NCBI GenBank assembly: GCA_964036665.1
Contig: OZ038529.1
Location: 19,416,060 to 19,480,059 of the forward strand
Source of the DNA: Gordius sp. MW1
Lineage: Eukaryota; Nematomorpha; Gordioida; Gordea; Gordiidae
Reading direction: 5' to 3'
DNA length: 64,000 nt
In this document: in pieces, positions 14,733-25,829 of the stretch
Position numbering within the stretch: position 1 is the first letter of the stretch
How the letters are laid out: each line of letters opens with the position of its first letter
Notes under the pieces: model-generated
The model's input: only the letters and a program-made list of their open reading frames with translations
What the model was told of the DNA's origin: nothing
Databases searched by the model: none
Translations under genes and position numbers: made by a program

Positions 14733-15835
14733 TTTAACCGTCTGAATTTTACAAATTGTCGGAAATTTTCCTAAGGCCTAAAAGTCTACATTCTTATAAT
14801 TGCCAAAATAAATATCAAAATAAGTCATCTATTACACCGGGTGACCCGAATATATAATTTTATTCACCCTCTCAGCCCTAAAAAGATATTCACTGCTCGC
14901 ACTAGTTGAAATGCTTTTGTTTGACATTGGGCTGTCAGTGCGTGCCTCTTAATGTCTCAAATGGCTGGAAGAAATTTTTATTATTACGGCATCAGCTTTT
15001 TAGTTTATTTTAAAATTAAGTCCGAGCATACGGTTTTCATGGCAGACCTCAAGGGCAAATTATTGTCGGATATTACCATTATATCTGGTGGCAAATCATC
15101 CAAAATATTTTACTCTGGCTCTCAAAATTGGCTAAAAAGCTTAATGAAACGACTAAAAATTATAACTAATTGCAAAAAAATGGAATTGCAAAGAAAATAG
15201 ATTAGTAAAGTAAATGAGAAACGTGATAGAACAATTTACTTTAATTCACATGGTGGACTTGTACTTAAAATCTAAAGTCTTGATTTACTTTTATTTTTTT
15301 AACTCTACGTACTTTTATATATTCATAGATGACGTTGCATCAATTGAGGAAAGGAATGATGCAGGTATAAACATTTAATACAATCCTTTTAATTGCGATT
15401 GTTTTTAGAAAGGGGTCATAATTCTCAGGCATCACCCTTACCGAATATAAACTCACCAAGCGTCGGTAAGAGGAGTCTTTTTTAATAATCATGCTTACTA
15501 ATTTCTCAGGTAAAACGTTAATTTCGTAATTGTTAGTTTTTGGATATTTGAATTAATGTTATAACATGCTTTAATTTTTATTTTATCCCTTGAGGGTGAA
15601 TGACTCAAAAATAAGTCCTAAAAGGCGTATTGTAATAATTTAGGCATTCGCAAAAGAACTTTTGGCCCAAATTAAAAACTAATACAGTTTCAAATAATGA
15701 ATTTAAGAAATTTTATTTGATTGTATTCAATAAAACTGGTTTAATAAAAATCTTATGTATTAGGTAAAACTAATTTCCAACTTATTAGGCTATAATTTAT
15801 ATCAAGTTTTACTCATTTGTTTTAAGACATAGAAA

Positions 15836-16365
15836 AAGTAAGTCCCGTACCGCAATTCATGCTATCGCAAAAGGGTAAATCCTTGCTCTACGTCGATTCC
15901 TACTTCTACCACCGGACAAATGCTTTCAAGGGCAAGACATATTACAAATGTCGCACGCGCCATTGTCCGGCCCGGGGTATAATGGGACAATCATTTTACC
16001 TAACTAAGGCTCATAATCACCCCGATGATAGGGAGAAGCATTTGATCATGACTTTCGTAGCCGAAATCAAAGCTGCAATAGCTGAAAATCCCGAAAAATC
16101 ATTCAAGAATGCATACTACGAAGTTTTGGATGGAAGAGCATTGTCCGAAAGAACACTCTTAGCCAAAACGTCTTTCCACGTTATTGCTAGAAAACTCAAA
16201 AAATCTTCAAAGCGAGGCAAACCATCTGGACAATCGGCGGACGAGATCAGTGGTTCATCTGATTTTTGCAGTGAAGATGAAGCGTCTCAAAGCAATTTCG
16301 TTAGCGACGATTTGCTTAAATTATTCTCCGACAATACTACACAAACCTTGTTTGGACTCTATTAA
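15836..16365 (+). CDS. FLYWCH zinc-finger protein, last exon
   Basis: The frame is open from an acceptor near 15828-15836 (the first ATG is at 15859) to a TAA at 16365. It encodes a well-formed FLYWCH domain: VPQFMLSQKGKSLLYVDSYF, then KTYYKCRTRHCPARG with the C-x4-C pair, then KAHNHPDD with the H-x-H pair. Behind it come about 30 helical residues, a basic stretch (RKLKKSSKRGKP), an acidic Ser-rich stretch and the terminal DNTTQTLFGLY. The role is unknown; DNA binding is the family expectation. The part from 16097 to the stop is repeated at 18011 and 20051. This copy lacks a 9-bp segment (three codons after GQS) that both duplicates have. Whether it is joined to the exon at 14099 is inferred. 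Confidence 0.72.
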
Positions 16366-17220
16366 GCTTACCCAGAGATTTTTGCTTGAATATGACTGTG
16401 TTGATTATAAGATTGATGATAATTATTGCGTGCAAATAAAATGCCATTAAATTCGTATTCATACGTGAATTATAAAATATTTTAGGGAGACGCGTTCTTT
16501 TAAAATTGAATTTTATTATTAAAACTCAGAAAAGTTAACCCTTTAATTATATGAAATCGAAGGGGTTTATAATAAAATGGTGAATTTAATAAAAAGTCAA
16601 AAAGGTTCACCTTCATGACTTTTTATATTAAATATCTGAGATTACCGGAAATATATATTCTGCCCTCCCCCCTCTCTTCTGTTTTAAACCTTTTTTAATT
16701 TAGTAATGAGATGGTATACATTTTATTACAAGTTTGACATGCCATTCTTCTATAGTAAGCAGTTCGTTTTATTTTTGGAGACTCTAAAATCAACATTATA
16801 AATAGCAAATCGATGACGGCGGCTAAAGTTTCTTAAAATTTGAGTTAAATACCATAGTGTTGTTAATATGCCAAAATGCTAAAACCATAACCTGGTAATA
16901 GGCACATATTTCCTACCATTACCATCATCATAACCAGCACCATGCTGCTTAATAACCCGGTTACTAGCCTGGCAGATTATAGTTGCCATGGTTGCTGGTT
17001 GAGAGAGATGTAAGCAACTGGGAATTTGGCAGATTGGATTGATATAAACCGTGGTATTGGTATTGAGCTGGGTTGTTTTAAACAAAACATGGTTTTTAGC
17101 AAATTTAATTTTAGCTTACTATTTGAGTTGGCAGCTGACATATAATGCTAATCAATATTTTTCAATCATATATTAATCCAAAAATTGTGATAAAAAAATT
17201 AAAATATATTATAAAGAACT

Positions 17221-18008
17221 TTGCCCCCTCCCTTTTTTTGTCCCGTTAATTTGCCCTCCCCCCTATTTTTTACCCTCTTTCTCACCAAAGGGGGGGGAGT
17301 CCCTGGTGAGAAAGAAAGTAAAAAAATAAGGGCCCCCCCCTGGTGAGAAAGAGGGTAAAAAATAAGCCCCCCCCTCTGGTGAGAAAGAGGGTAAAAATAA
17401 GGGGTCCCCCCCCCCCTTTGGTGAGAAAGAGGGTAAAAAATAAGGGAGGGGGGGTCAAAACGTCCCCCCCCTTGGTGAGAAAGAGGGTAAAAAATAGGGG
17501 GGGGGCAAAACACCCCCCCCCCCCTGGTGAGAAAGAGGGTAAAATATAAGGGGGGGGGGCAAAACACCTCCCCCCCTCCCTCCCCTCTGGTGAGAAAGAG
17601 GGTACAAATAAGGGGAGGGGGCAAAACACCCCCCCCCCCCCCCCTCCCCTTTGGTGAGAAAGAGGGTAAAAAATAGGGGGGGGCCCTCCCCTCTGGTGAG
17701 AAAGAGGGTAAAAATTAGGGAGGGGGGCAAAACACCCCCCCCCCCCCTTCTCCCCTTTGGTGAGAAAGAGAGTAAAAAATAGGGGGGGCACACCCCCCCC
17801 CCTTGGTGAGAAGGAGGGTAAAAAAATAAGGGGGGGGGGCAAAACACCCCCCCCCCTCCCTTTTAATGAGAAAGAGGGTAAAAATAAGGGGGGGGGGCAA
17901 AACACCCCCTTTCCTCTTTGGTGAGAAGGAGGTTAAAAAATGAGGGGGGGGGGGGGCAAACACCCCCCCCCCCCCCCCCCCTCTGGTTAGAAAGAGGGTA
18001 AAAAATAA
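17221..18008. repeat. Minisatellite array 1
   Basis: About 14 units of roughly 45-60 bp. Each has GGTGAGAAAGAGGGTAAAAA, an A/T spacer, a G run of about 7-14, CAAAACA (missing in some units) and a C run. The first unit is inverted relative to the rest, so the array opens with a small palindrome. Most of the length variation is in the homopolymer runs. Several frames stay open through the array on both strands, but these are low-complexity and not genes. Confidence 0.92.
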
Positions 18009-18010
18009 AA

Positions 18011-18288
18011 AATCATTCAAGAATGCATACTACGAAGTTTTGGATGGAAGAGCATTGTCCGAAAGAACACTCTTAGCCAAAACGTCTTTCCACGTTATTG
18101 CTAGAAAACTCAAAAAATCTTCAAAGCGAGGCAAACCATCTGGACAATCGGATACTAGTTCGGACGAGATCAGTGGTTCATCTGATTTTTGCAGTGAAGA
18201 TGAAGCGTCTCAAAGCAATTTCGTTAGCGACGATTTGCTTAAATTATTCTCCGACAATACTACACAAACCTTGTTTGGACTCTATTAA
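18011..18288 (+). pseudogene. FLYWCH C-terminal fragment, tandem copy 2
   Basis: This repeats 16097-16365 almost exactly, with an added 9-bp segment (three codons after GQS). It lacks the FLYWCH domain and any upstream exon, and it begins directly at the minisatellite, so it should not give the parental protein. The frame remains intact to the same stop, as expected of a recent duplication. Confidence 0.85.
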
Positions 18289-19141
18289 GCTTACCCAGAG
18301 ATTTTTGCTTGAATATGACTGTGTTGATTATAAGATTGATGATAATTATTGCGTGCAAAGAAAATGCCATTAAATTCGTATTCATACGTGAATTATAAAA
18401 TATTTTAGGGAGACGCGTTCTTTTAAAATTGAATTTTATTATTAAAACCCAGAAAAGTTAACCCTTTAATTATATGAAATCGAAGGGGTTTATAATAAAA
18501 TGGTGAATTTAATAAAAAGTCAAAAAGGTTCACCTTCATGACTTTATATTAAATATCTGAGATTACCGGAAATATATATTCTGCCCTCCCCCCTCTCTTC
18601 TGTTTTAAACCTTTTTTAATTTAGTAATGAGATGGTATACATTTTATTATAAGTTTGACATGCCATTCTTCTATAGTAAGCAGTTCGTTTTATTTTTGGA
18701 GACTCTAAAATCAACATTATAAATAGCAAATCGATGACGGCGGCTAAAGTTTCTTAAAATTTGAGTTAAATACCATAGTGTTGTTAATATGCCAAAATGC
18801 TAAAACCATAACCTGGTAATAGGCACATATTTCCTACCATTACCATCATCATAACCAGCACCATGCTGCTTAATAACCCGGTTACTAGCCTGGCAGATTA
18901 TAGTTGCCATGGTTGCTGGTTGAGAGAGATGTAAGCAACTGGGAATTTGGCAGATTGGATTGATATAAACCGTGGTATTGGTATTGAGCTGGGTTGTTTT
19001 AAACAAAACATGGTTTTTAGCAAATTTAATTTTAGCTTACTATTAGAGTTGGCAGCTGACATATAATGCTAATCAATATTTTTCAATCATATATTAATCC
19101 AAAAATTGTGATAAAAAAATTAAAATATATTATAAAGAACT

Positions 19142-20048
19142 TTGCCCCCTCCCTTTTTTTGTCCCGTTAATTTGCCCTCCCCCCTATTTTTTACCCTCTT
19201 TCTCACCAAAGGGGGGGGAGTCCCTGGTGAGAAAGAAAGTAAAAAAATAAGGGCCCCCCCCCTGGTGAGAAAGAGGGTAAAAAATAAGCCCCCCCCCTCT
19301 GGTGAGAAAGAGGGTAAAAATAAGGGGTCCCCCCCCCCCCTTTGGTGAGAAAGAGGGTAAAAAATAAGGGAGGGGGGGTCAAAACGTCCCCCCCCCCCCC
19401 TTGGTGAGAAAGAGGGTAAAAAATAGGGGGGGGGGCAAAACACCCCCCCCCCCCCCCTGGTGAGAAAGAGGTTAAAATATAAGGGGGGGGGGGCAAAACA
19501 CCTCCCCCCCTCCCTCCCCTCTGGTGAGAAAGAGGGTACAAATAAGGGGAGGGGGCAAAACACCCCCCCCCCCCTCCCCTTTGGGGAGAAAGAGGGTAAA
19601 AAATAGGGGGGGGCCCTCCCCTCTGGTGAGAAAGAGGGTAAAAATTAGGGAGGGGGGCAAAACACCCCCCCCCCTTCTCCCCTTTGGTGAGAAAGAGAGT
19701 AAAAAATAGGGGGGGCACACCCCCCCCCCCTTGGTGAGAAGGAGGGTAAAAAAATAAGGGGGGGGGCAAAACACCCCCCCCCCCCCCTCCCTTTTAATGA
19801 GAAAGAGGGTAAAAATAAGGGGGGGGGCAAAACACCCCCCCCCCCCTCCCTTTTAATGAGAAAGAGGGTAAAATAAGGAAGGAGGGGGGCAAAACACCCT
19901 CCCCCCCTTGGTGAGAAAGAGGGTAAAAAATAGGGGGGGGGGGGCAAAACACCCCCCTTTCCTCTTTGGTGAGAAGGAGGTTAAAAAATGAGGGGGGGGG
20001 GGCAAACACCCCCCCCCCCCCTCTGGTTAGAAAGAGGGTAAAAAATAA
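19142..20048. repeat. Minisatellite array 2
   Basis: Same unit and same opening inverted unit as array 1, slightly longer, with one extra G-run/C-run unit near 19800-19870. Its 3' end again runs straight into the exon duplicate. Confidence 0.92.
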
Positions 20049-20050
20049 AA

Positions 20051-20328
20051 AATCATTCAAGAATGCATACTACGAAGTTTTGGATGGAAGAGCATTGTCC
20101 GAAAGAACACTCTTAGCCAAAACGTCTTTCCACGTTATTGCTAGAAAACTCAAAAAATCTTCAAAGCGAGGCAAACCATCTGGACAATCGGATACTAGTT
20201 CGGACGAGATCAGTGGTTCATCTGATTTTTGCAGTGAAGATGAAGCGTCTCAAAGCAATTTCGTTAGCGACGATTTGCTTAAATTATTCTCCGACAATAC
20301 TACACAAACCTTGTTTGGACTCTATTAA
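20051..20328 (+). pseudogene. FLYWCH C-terminal fragment, tandem copy 3
   Basis: Essentially identical to copy 2, including the 9-bp insertion, and like it cut off from the zinc-finger part. The upstream minisatellite is in frame with it for a short distance (from about 19966), which makes a chance chimeric open frame rather than a credible gene. Confidence 0.85.
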
Positions 20329-21180
20329 GCTTACCCAGAGATTTTTGCTTGAATATGACTGTGTTGATTATAAGATTGATGATAATTATTGCGTGCAAAG
20401 AAAATGCCATTAAATTCGTATTCATACGTGAATTATAAAATATTTTAGGGAGACGCGTTCTTTTAAAATTGAATTTTATTATTAAAACCCAGAAAAGTTA
20501 ACCCTTTAATTATATGAAATCGAAGGGGTTTATAATAAAATGGTGAATTTAATAAAAAGTCAAAAAGGTTCACCTTCATGACTTTATATTAAATATCTGA
20601 GATTACCGGAAATATATATTCTGCCCTCCCCCCTCTCTTCTGTTTTAAACCTTTTTTAATTTAGTAATGAGATGGTATACATTTTATTATAAGTTTGACA
20701 TGCCATTCTTCTATAGTAAGCAGTTCGTTTTATTTTTGGAGACTCTAAAATCAACATTATAAATAGCAAATCGATGACGGCGGCTAACGTTTCTTAAAAT
20801 TTGAGTTAAATACCATAGTGTTGTTAATATGCCAAATGCTAAAACCATAACCTGGTAATAGGCACATATTTCCTACCATTACCATCATCATAACCAGCAC
20901 CATGCTGCTTAATAACCCGGTTACTAGCCTGGCAGATTAAAGTTGCCATGGTTGCTGGTTGAGAGAGATGTAAGCAACCGGGAATTTGGCAGATTGGATT
21001 AATATAAACCGTGGTATTGGTATTGAGCTGGGTTGTTTTAAACAAAACATGGTTTTTAGCAAATTTAATTTTAGCTTACTATTAGAGTTGGCAGCTGACA
21101 TATAATGCTAATCAATATTTTTCAATCATATATTAATCCAAAATGGTGATAAAAAAATTAAAATATATTATAAAGAACTT

Positions 21181-22165
21181 TGCCCCCTCCCTTTTTTGTC
21201 CCGTTAATTTGCCCTCCCCCCTATTTTTTATTCTCTTTCTCACCAAAGGGGGGGGGGGGAGTCCCTGGTGAGAAAGAAAGTAAAAAATAAGGGCCCCCCT
21301 GGTGAGAAAGAGGGTAAAAAATAAGCCCCCCCCTCTGGTGAGAAAGAGGGTAAAAATAAGGGGCCCCCCCCCTTTGGTGAGAAAGAGGGTAAAAAATAAG
21401 GGAGGGGGTCAAAACGTCCCCCCCCCCCCTTGGTGAGAAAGAGGGTAAAAAAAAACCCCCTCCCCTCTCCTCTGGTGAGAAAGGGGGTAAAAATAAGGGA
21501 GGGGTGGCAAAACACCCCCCCCCCCCTGGTGAGAAAGAGGGTAAAAAATAAGGGGGAGGGGGCAAAACACCTCCCCCCCCCTCCCTCCCCTCTATTGAGA
21601 AAGAGGGTACAAATAAGGGGGGGGCAAAACACCCCCCCCCCCCTCCCCTTTGGTGAGAAAGAGGGTAAAAAATAGGGGGGGGGGCCCTCCCCTCTGGTGA
21701 GAAAGGGGGTAAAAATTAGGGAGGGGGGCAAAACACCCCCCCCCCTCCCCTTTGGTGAGAAAGGGAGTAAAAAATAGGGGGGGCACACCCCCCCCCCCCT
21801 TGGTGAGAAGGAGGGTAAAAAAATAAGGGGGGGGGGGGTGGGGCAAAACACCCCCCCCCCCCCCCCTGGTGAGAAAGAGGGTAAAAATAAGGGGGGGCAA
21901 AACACCCCCCCCCCCCCTCCCTTTTGTGAGAAAGAGGGTAAAATAAGGGGGGAGGGGGGCAAAACACCCTCCCCCCCCTTGGTGAGAAAGAGGGTAAAAA
22001 ATAGGGGGGGGGGGCAAAACACCCCCCCTTCCCCTTTGGTGAGAAGGAGGTTAAAAAATGAGGGGGGGGGGCAAACACCCCCCCCCCCCCCCTCTGGTTA
22101 GAAAGAGGGTAAAAAATAGGGGGGGGGGGGAGCAAACCAACGGGACAAATAAAGGGAGGGGGGCA
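21181..22165. repeat. Minisatellite array 3
   Basis: The longest of the arrays, with the same unit. Unlike arrays 1 and 2, its last unit continues past the junction point into the right inverted arm of the transposon, beginning with CCAACGGGACAAATAAAGGG, the complement of the array's own left border. Confidence 0.92.
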
Positions 22166-22799
22166 AAGTTATTTATAATATATTTTAATTTTTTTATCAC
22201 CTTTTTTGGATTAATATATGATTGACAAATATTGATTAGCATTATATGTCAGCTGCCAACTCTAATAGTAAGCTAAAATTAACATTGCTAAAAACCATGT
22301 CTTGTTTAAAACAACCCAGCTCAATACCAATACCACGGTTTATATCAATCCAATCTGCCAAATTGCCGGTTACTTACATCTCTCTCAACCAGCAACCATG
22401 GCAACTTTAATCTGCAAGGCTATTAACCCGGTTATTAAGCAGCATGGTGCTTGTTATGATGATGGTAATGGTAGGAAATATGTGCCTATTACCAGGTTTA
22501 GCACTATACAAGCAGAACCAATTTGAGCAGATTAACAACACTAAAATACCAGATATGTAAGCATGAAATTGAAATTCGCTTATTGGTAGCACCAGGGTTT
22601 AATGTACCTCGTTACGGCTAGATAACCTTAGTGGCTTCAATTCCTTAAGGCACCATTGATACCATATTTTACTCAGATCGATTTGTACATCAGTAAATTA
22701 ATAATAACATTGAACAATTATAATTTTGTGCCTGGTCCGATTTGTATATAATGTTTTGTGGCCACTTAAAGAAAACGGCTGCAGATAGACATGCTTGTA

Positions 22800-23999: not shown

Positions 24000-25829
24000 T
24001 AGTGTTGTAAAAAACCAAGGTTTTAGATTGGTCGCCTGCAAGGTTAGCGTTTTTTCCCACCAAACCCTTTCAGTGTTAGGTGAATTTTTTTGGTTCACCC
24101 TTGGTGTTTGGCGCTTTTTACACCCATACACCAAGAGTGTTTGGGTGAAATTTTTTGCCCTTGGTGTATTGGCGCTTTTCACACCCATACACCTTTCGTA
24201 ACCTTTTGGTTTGGTTTTGGTCGTTTTGGGTTGTGTATGGAAATATGTGAAGTCTTTATAATTTTTGTATTTAATAGTTATTTATTTATGTAATGAACTT
24301 TTATTGATGGGAAATATGAAATGACGTCACTAAGATAGTTATAATCAGCCTATAATTTGTTCCAATTGGTATGCGATACATCATTCATTCAGAGCAGATC
24401 ATTAAGGTGTATTATGAAAATATTTTTTTTTATTTTTCTAAGGTGAAACAGATGACAAATGTCAAAATCTTTAATATCTATTGAAATGAATATTTTTTCT
24501 TGGAAATTGGTTCATTATATCACTAAAACAAGTTTTAAACATGAAAATAATATTTTTTCACCTGTTTAATGTGAAACAGGTGATAAATTCCAAAATCATT
24601 ATTATCTATTGAAATGAATACTTTTTTTTTGAAATTGGTTCATTATATGACTAACACAACATTTAAACATGAAAATAATATTTTTTCACCTGTTCAATGT
24701 GAAACAGGTGACAAATTCCAAAATCTTTAATATCTATTGAAATGAATAATTAATATATATTATTTTCATGTTTAAAACTTGTGTTAGTCATATAATGAAC
24801 CAATTTCCAAAAAAAAATTCATTTCAATAGATATTGAAGATTTTGGAATTTGTCACCTGTTTCACGTTGAACAGGTTAAAAAATATTATTTTCGAGTTTA
24901 AAACTTGTGTTATGAACCAATTTCCAAAAAAAAATTTCATTCTAATAGATATTAAAGATTTTGGAATTTGGCACCTGTTTCACATTGAACAGGTGAAAAA
25001 TATTATTTTTGAGTTTAAAACTTGTTTTAGTCATATAATGAACCAATTTCCAAAAAAACATTCATTTCAAATTCAATAGATATTAAAAATTTTGGAATTT
25101 ACCACCTGTTTCACATTTAACAGATAAAAAAATAATATTTTCATGTTTAAAACTTGTTTTAGTCATATAATGAACCAATTTCCAAAAAATAATATTCATT
25201 TCAATAGATTTTAAAGATTTTAGAATTTGTCACCTGTTTCACATTGAACAGGTGAAAAAATATTATTTTAGAGTTTAAAACTTATTTTAGTCATATAATG
25301 AACCAATTTCCAAAAAAAAAATATTCATTTCAATAGATATTAAAGATTTTGACATTTGTCACCTGTTTCACCTTAGAAAGGTAAAAAAAATATTTTCATA
25401 ATACACCTTTAATGATCTGCTCTGCATGAATGATGTATCGCATACCAATTGGAACAAATTCTAGGTTGATTATAACTAGCTTAGTGACGTCATTTCATAT
25501 TTCCCATCAATAAAAGCTCATTACATAAATAAATAACTATTAAATACAAAAATTATAAAGACTTCACATATTCCATACACAACCCAAAACGACAAAACCA
25601 AACCAAAAGGTTACGAAAGGTGTATGGGTGTGAAAAGCGCCAAAACACCAAGGGTGAACCAAAAAATTTCACCCAATCACTCTTGGTGTATGGGTGTAAA
25701 AAGCGCCAAACACCAAGGGTGAACCAAAAAAATTCACCTAACACTGAAAAGGTTAGGCGTAATTTATACACCAATTACCAAGCTTGGCAACACGCTGGGA
25801 AAAACCAGCCAGCCGTTTTTACAACACTA
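24000..25829. mobile_element. Fold-back hAT element, TAGTGTTG family
   Basis: The ends TAGTGTTGTAAAAAACC / TTTTTACAACACTA are inverted, and the flanks carry a perfect 8-bp duplication ATTCCTAG (23992-23999 and 25830-25837). Nearly the whole 1830 bp is one giant inverted repeat centred near 24755. Within each arm a block of about 110-130 bp is repeated in tandem, and it contains its own palindrome of the type CACCTGTTTCACATTGAACA. There is no transposase. Short open frames on both strands are products of the mirror symmetry. Confidence 0.88.

Follow-up and report, generated by a model that had tools for sequence, protein, structure and literature searches.

How does the end of a host gene come to stand three times in a row together with one half of a transposon, when the other half is present once? 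The question is raised by a locus in Gordius sp. MW1 (assembly GCA_964036665.1, 211.8 Mb in 12 contigs), on the 25.9-Mb contig OZ038529.1, of which we analysed 64,000 nucleotides of the forward strand (19,416,060 to 19,480,059; the window, in whose coordinates all positions without a contig prefix are given). The repeated block runs from within the last exon of a FLYWCH gene to the left arm and minisatellite of a putative hAT-type element. We consider it probable that the array grew by one illegitimate duplication, which would have given two units, a and b, and then by ordinary unequal crossover in this two-unit a-b array, which would have left the three units a, b/a and b.

Anatomy of the array and its junctions

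Self-alignment of the window resolves three tandem units (Table 1), of which the first two measure 1914 and 2040 bp, in agreement with an earlier note on this DNA that had described a block present in three copies and a right arm present in one. The direct repeats 16094-18007 and 18008-19932 are 96.2% identical, and the third copy, from 20048, is 90.4% identical to the first; repeats of about 2 kb at such identity would not arise by chance. Each unit holds the FLYWCH exon tail followed by some 490 bp of 3' flank, then a left arm starting with TAGTGTTGTTAAT and a minisatellite of G and C runs, and the lone right arm closes the array after unit 3, to 22543. The arms are inverted relative to one another, 22085-22498 for example matching 16889-17297 at 93.5% over 414 bp. 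The exon part, previously placed at 16097, begins at 16094. The element spans 16855-22543, starting 490 bp past the FLYWCH stop codon at 16365, and copies of AAATACCA flank it at 16847-16854 and 22544-22551, which bears out the 8-bp target duplication recognized earlier. A search of the 212-Mb assembly with exon and flank (16097-16800) returned the three array copies and, on the reverse strand, two matches of 48 bp that lie within units 2 and 3; no further copy of exon plus flank was found elsewhere in the assembly.

Both internal junctions are identical over the 40 bases compared, each reading ...GAGGGTAAAAAATA joined to AAAAATCATTC. The join sets ...GGGTAAAAAATA bluntly onto AAAAATCATTC with both A tracts whole. 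Because the equivalent site in unit 3 continues ...TAAAAAATAGGGG and the exon preceding 16094 reads ...CCCG, the first join was blunt, with no base in common. Microhomology there is ruled out, the A tracts being concatenated, not merged, and the short A-rich match once proposed for each junction is absent. Two junctions are indeed present, as had been supposed, but they are not separate in origin: since they read alike, a single new join arose and was copied afterwards. A breakpoint in the minisatellite belongs to the first duplication only.

Table 1. Features of the array in window coordinates
Feature	Position	Strand	Remarks
Last FLYWCH exon	15826..16365	+	Open frame, 179 codons ending at stop; only the tail from 16094 is repeated
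Unit 1 (type a)	16094..18007	+	Tail 16094-16365, flank 16366-16854, left arm 16855-17289, minisatellite ~17290-18007 (14 repeats; about two lost)
Left copy of 8-bp target duplication AAATACCA	16847..16854		Also copied within units 2 and 3
Left arm of hAT-type element	16855..17289	+	Terminal TAGTGTTGTTAAT
Junction of units 1 and 2	18007..18008		Minisatellite to exon, blunt, without microhomology
Unit 2 (recombinant)	18008..20047	+	Type b, like unit 3, in exon tail and flank; type a, like unit 1, in left arm (from 18776) and minisatellite (16 repeats)
Crossover switch interval, type b to type a	18651..18747		Bounded by the last variant of type b (18650) and the first of type a (18748)
Junction of units 2 and 3	20047..20048		Sequence same as first junction
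Unit 3 (type b)	20048..22127	+	Tail 20048-20328, flank, left arm from 20816, minisatellite (17 repeats); equivalent of the duplication endpoint at 22118
Right arm, single	22128..22543	-	Terminus ATTAACAACACTA
Right copy of 8-bp target duplication AAATACCA	22544..22551

The mosaic middle unit and the order of events

Alignment of the three units yields 15 variants outside the minisatellite, and these divide unit 2 into two parts of different affinity. From 16238 to 16729, all five variants (a 9-bp indel, three substitutions and a 2-bp indel) set unit 1 against units 2 and 3; the nine bases, ATACTAGTT, are absent from unit 1, a difference already remarked upon. From 16827 to 17289, nine of the ten variants unite units 1 and 2 against unit 3. 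The tenth, at 17124, is T in unit 1 and A in units 2 and 3, in 19 of 19 other left arms and in 13 of 14 right arms; because the other arms carry A, the T is a later change private to unit 1. The minisatellite continues the second pattern as far as 17890, where ungapped differing columns pair unit 2 with unit 1 in 24 cases and with unit 3 in one (seven are private to unit 2, and in two all units differ), and TTTTAATGAG and TTTCCT repeats are common to units 1 and 2 only. The switch thus falls in unique 3' flank, outside the minisatellite, within a 97-bp interval lying 29-125 bp upstream of the element in unit 2. Both features by which unequal crossover was tested are present: the internal junctions are identical, and the middle unit is a hybrid that switches once, the last 117 bp of the minisatellite being ambiguous.

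Polarizing the arm variants against 19 left and 14 right arms from elsewhere assigns three derived states to type a (16980, 17019 and 17186) and about five events to type b; derived states on both sides imply that both lineages changed after they separated. Dating the aligned units, as the earlier note had proposed, gives 11 differences in 1191 sites between units 1 and 3, that is, between a and b (0.92%, 95% interval 0.46-1.65%), and one change in 1106 sites since the crossover (0.09%, interval 0.002-0.50%). At an insect rate of 2.8e-9 per site per generation, these values translate into about 1.6 million and 0.16 million generations, with age intervals that are wide and meet each other. The order and relative age of the two steps, like the array's anatomy, its common junction and its mosaic middle unit, can be read from the sequence itself.

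We envisage the following course. A non-autonomous hAT-type element of about 1.7 kb, with two long arms around a core of G/C-run minisatellite, would have inserted 490 bp past the FLYWCH gene. The last minisatellite repeat would then have suffered a break or held a stalled fork at the equivalent of 22118, and this site would have been joined to exon position 16094 on a sister chromatid or a homologous one, through end joining or template switching without microhomology, producing units a and b with a right arm at the far end only. Later, unit b would have paired with unit a on misaligned chromatids, and one crossover within the unique 3' flank (18651-18747) would have generated a - (b/a) - b, keeping the junction and leaving the right arm single. 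Of this course we infer the crossover origin of the mosaic, the break of the first step, its repair pathway and the identity of the partners as sisters or homologues. The previously suggested growth in two steps is supported, as is an origin of the array after a palindromic hAT-type element had inserted. The transposon's part was to supply one end of the first join through its minisatellite; the second switch point did not come from the minisatellite.

Several points weigh against this history. The same mosaic would result from gene conversion if three units had already been in place, and the number of units is only as good as the assembly. The best-split permutation over the 15 variants, which supports the mosaic (30 of 5005 orders as good, P 0.006), treats the variants as independent and was chosen after the data had been seen. 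In the final stretch of the minisatellite, 17891-18007, the automatic alignment reverses, with 19 columns pairing unit 2 with unit 3, four pairing it with unit 1, six private and one all different. We read this as misalignment across the roughly two repeats missing from unit 1, because by eye the final repeats are alike in units 1 and 2 (TTTCCT, against CTTCCC in unit 3); a second switch may lie in these last 117 bp. At most polarized arm sites one other arm shows the minority state (a different arm each time, and four arms at 17180), and the exon variants are not polarizable because no other copy was found. Finally, the first step may be younger than it seems if a and b already differed as alleles before the duplication.

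Three units might instead have formed first, for instance by a rolling circle or by reintegration of an extrachromosomal circle closed at the minisatellite-exon junction, with gene conversion creating the mosaic later. A circle would account for one junction copied into all units, conversion does make mosaics, and a possible second switch near 17890 would fit; but this course requires an extra event, and the mosaic switches only once outside the minisatellite, as crossover predicts, so that we think it unlikely. We judge it unlikely that a one- or two-unit locus was enlarged in assembly by a graph loop or by haplotype merging. A loop through a-b would also yield the path a, b/a, b, unit 2 has no private variant outside the minisatellite, and G/C runs are hard to sequence. 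Unit 1, however, carries the private substitution at 17124 and lacks about two minisatellite repeats, the array lies inside a 25.9-Mb contig, and no second haplotype copy was found in the genome search; private changes in the minisatellite of unit 2, such as GAGGTTAA near 19472 and GGGGAG near 19585, point the same way. Private changes in G/C runs could be sequencing errors, so that the argument is not decisive.

The mechanism first advanced for this locus, a separate exchange for each unit primed by a hairpin-forming minisatellite, now appears very doubtful. The minisatellite of unit 1, as single-stranded DNA, does fold better than its shuffles (-182 vs -148 kcal/mol, z -6.1, 20 shuffles), the first duplication has one of its ends there, and at another locus of the family, L059, a minisatellite repeat is joined directly to upstream arm sequence. 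Yet the two junctions are identical over 40 bases where endpoints could have varied within the array, and only the first join uses the minisatellite; the position of the second switch, in unique flank, together with the identical junctions, leads us to reject such priming for the second step. Capture of the exon by the element and carriage by transposition, which the exon pieces between the element's ends might bring to mind, can safely be set aside, contradicted as it is by an anatomy with no breakpoint at an element end and with host flank and left target duplication copied as well, and by the lack of any other copy in the genome search.

Illegitimate duplication followed by unequal crossover is in keeping with what is known of such arrays: Bar-type duplications, once formed, grow and shrink by unequal crossover. 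The process is already known, and the locus would be a clean example of it, not of a new one. In the Bar duplication of Drosophila, a roo element lies at the junction of the tandem duplication, much as a transposon does here (PMC13322080); there the first step is a crossover between two roo copies, whereas here the first join was made without homology, in the minisatellite of one element. The Gordius array is an unusually readable fossil of tandem amplification, in which an illegitimate join, a homologous step, a 97-bp switch interval and relative ages are recovered from one sequence, and in which the transposon's role, the first breakpoint, is separable from the growth of the array by ordinary crossover in duplicated flank.

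The element and its family

The best interpretation of the element is as a non-autonomous transposon from a hAT-type family whose arms are foldback-like, an assignment based on its target duplication, its ends and a related 7.2-kb element that contains a piece of a hAT dimerisation domain. In the window, TAGTGTTGTTAAT on the left has its complement on the right, and other copies show the same ends with small changes. Nine other copies are complete in the loci fetched (1.2-1.8 kb), with an 8-bp duplication that is exact in six (including L047) and matches at 7 of 8 positions in three. Across the genome, the end patterns at three mismatches or fewer occur 208 times as left and 72 times as right ends, against 3 and 0 for reversed-pattern controls, and the left arm has at least 43 matches, four of them in the array (40 of 417 first-look candidates scored). 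The minisatellite cores of the nine complete copies consist of the same repeat in both orientations, with 1-7 left-type and 1-9 right-type repeats; that of the window copy is lopsided, with one left-type and 14 to 17 right-type repeats.

The 7.2-kb relative, L087 (measured between its ends), shares the arms and has the minisatellite on either side of an interior that is decayed and from which a 29-residue piece matches Dimer_Tnp_hAT (E 6.3e-8). A second piece, of 124 amino acids, has no Pfam match at E up to 1, and the flanks of L087 show no matching target duplication (CCTATAAC vs GTATATAG). A nested foreign hAT would be conceivable as the source of the matching piece, since L087 is decayed and hAT domains are common in this genome (150 matches scored from 3413 candidates). 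Another locus, L086 (C2:8460400-8463600), holds a sister element whose left end reads TAGTGTTGTTAAAATGCC. The two-sided minisatellite core of L086 is longer, and its 8-bp duplication, CTTCAGCT, is exact; its left-end variant is frequent among the left ends listed.

Long inverted arms, in some cases with internal tandem repeats that vary in number between copies, are shared with Galileo (PMC3573991) and Tetris (PMC4079207). Galileo, however, belongs to the P superfamily and makes 7-bp target duplications (PMC3573991), in contrast to the 8 bp and the hAT-type relative seen here. Membership in Foldback or Galileo was considered and rejected on the 8-bp duplications and the dimerisation piece in L087; no P-type search was made. 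Among the alleles of Tetris are some with three and some with four arm repeats, which its authors consider a possible product of unequal crossover (PMC4079207), but what is amplified there is the element's own repeat, not the end of a neighbouring gene. The same difference separates the array from miniature inverted-repeat transposable elements with satellite or minisatellite repeats, which are likewise non-autonomous and hold tandem repeats inside, and in which element repeats are amplified, as opposed to host exon plus element (PMC9659126). We did not meet a hAT element with a minisatellite core amplifying a gene end in the literature searched, which does not show that none is in print.

Is such amplification a habit of the family? 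That a transposon can seed amplification of a gene end, as the earlier note suggested, describes this locus; it is not shown to be a habit of the family, because no same-strand left-end neighbours within 12 kb were seen by eye among the 97 left ends listed besides the window's three (100 of the 208 were listed, 108 further matches not). No right ends were doubled on one strand within that distance among all 72. Arm mapping covered all 27 element loci fetched (L039-L065), and two rearranged ones, L059 and L061, were given a full reading. In L059 (C6:6032990-6036345), inner arm and minisatellite are directly repeated after a break in the minisatellite, with the right arm inverted; L061 carries, upstream of its left arm, an arm-like copy that is diverged (75-79%) and is not an amplification. 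Given L059, minisatellite breaks may recur. It would be a further, rather improbable step to regard the G/C-run core as a fragile site at which broken ends recurrently become joined to unique DNA upstream and so seed direct duplications, this locus and L059 being two outcomes of one process; if that were true, such breakage would have produced two extra gene ends here.

The FLYWCH gene and its copied tails

The last exon of the host gene matches Pfam FLYWCH at E 5e-10 (residues 11-65 of its frame). Its full-length frame is present once, the next best match having 36% identity, and the complete gene frame is retained in unit 1. The 93-codon tails of units 2 and 3 are still open and changed only by the nine in-frame bases (QSADEIS vs QSDTSSDEIS). 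No coding substitution occurs in their 272 sites, where 2.5 are predicted from the rate over all 1191 sites; as a sign of selection on the copied tails this lack of change is not significant (P 0.058). In the flank, an AATAAA word of unit 1 (16437) is AAGAAA in units 2 and 3, and two further AATAAA words follow downstream in all three flanks. Most minisatellite repeats (17338-18007, 19260-20047 and 21297-22127) contain GGTGAG, which resembles a 5' splice site, and the last repeat before each junction carries a C-run followed by CTCTGGTTAG, which resembles a 3' splice site. On the rather improbable fragile-site reading, the copied tails may be spliced from the putative acceptor, C-run plus GGTTAG, just 5' of each junction.

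FLYWCH exons, and tandem exon repeats reported at acceptor loci, also characterize mod(mdg4)-like acceptors (PMC4667647). The window gene has the FLYWCH domain, but no donor-type BTB is listed nearby: in C3, 18.9-19.5 Mb, the only BTB match listed is a kelch-type gene within the window. With no mod(mdg4)-type donor identified near the locus, membership as a mod(mdg4)-like acceptor gene is not established. FLYWCH frames, most of them in minus orientation, cluster at C3:18.96-19.21 Mb, about 0.2-0.5 Mb before the window, and could represent an expanded FLYWCH gene family or locus. Genome-wide there are 146 FLYWCH matches (from 150 of 455 candidates scored), many with one common score and a common frame length of 105, 209 or about 207-227 codons. 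Several form inverted pairs with a spacing of 1-18 kb (for example C3:10961151/10962978, C4:18008296/18013242 and C8:22139338/22144016), as if FLYWCH genes rode in transposons with long inverted arms. At C5:20.20-20.37 Mb there are five similar BTB exons, and a FLYWCH match at C5:20268763, about 2.7 kb 5' of the BTB exon at C5:20265833, possibly marks a BTB-FLYWCH gene region. Downstream of the array, at 24414-24748, the window contains a separate 128-bp tandem repeat of 2.6 copies that are 87% alike.

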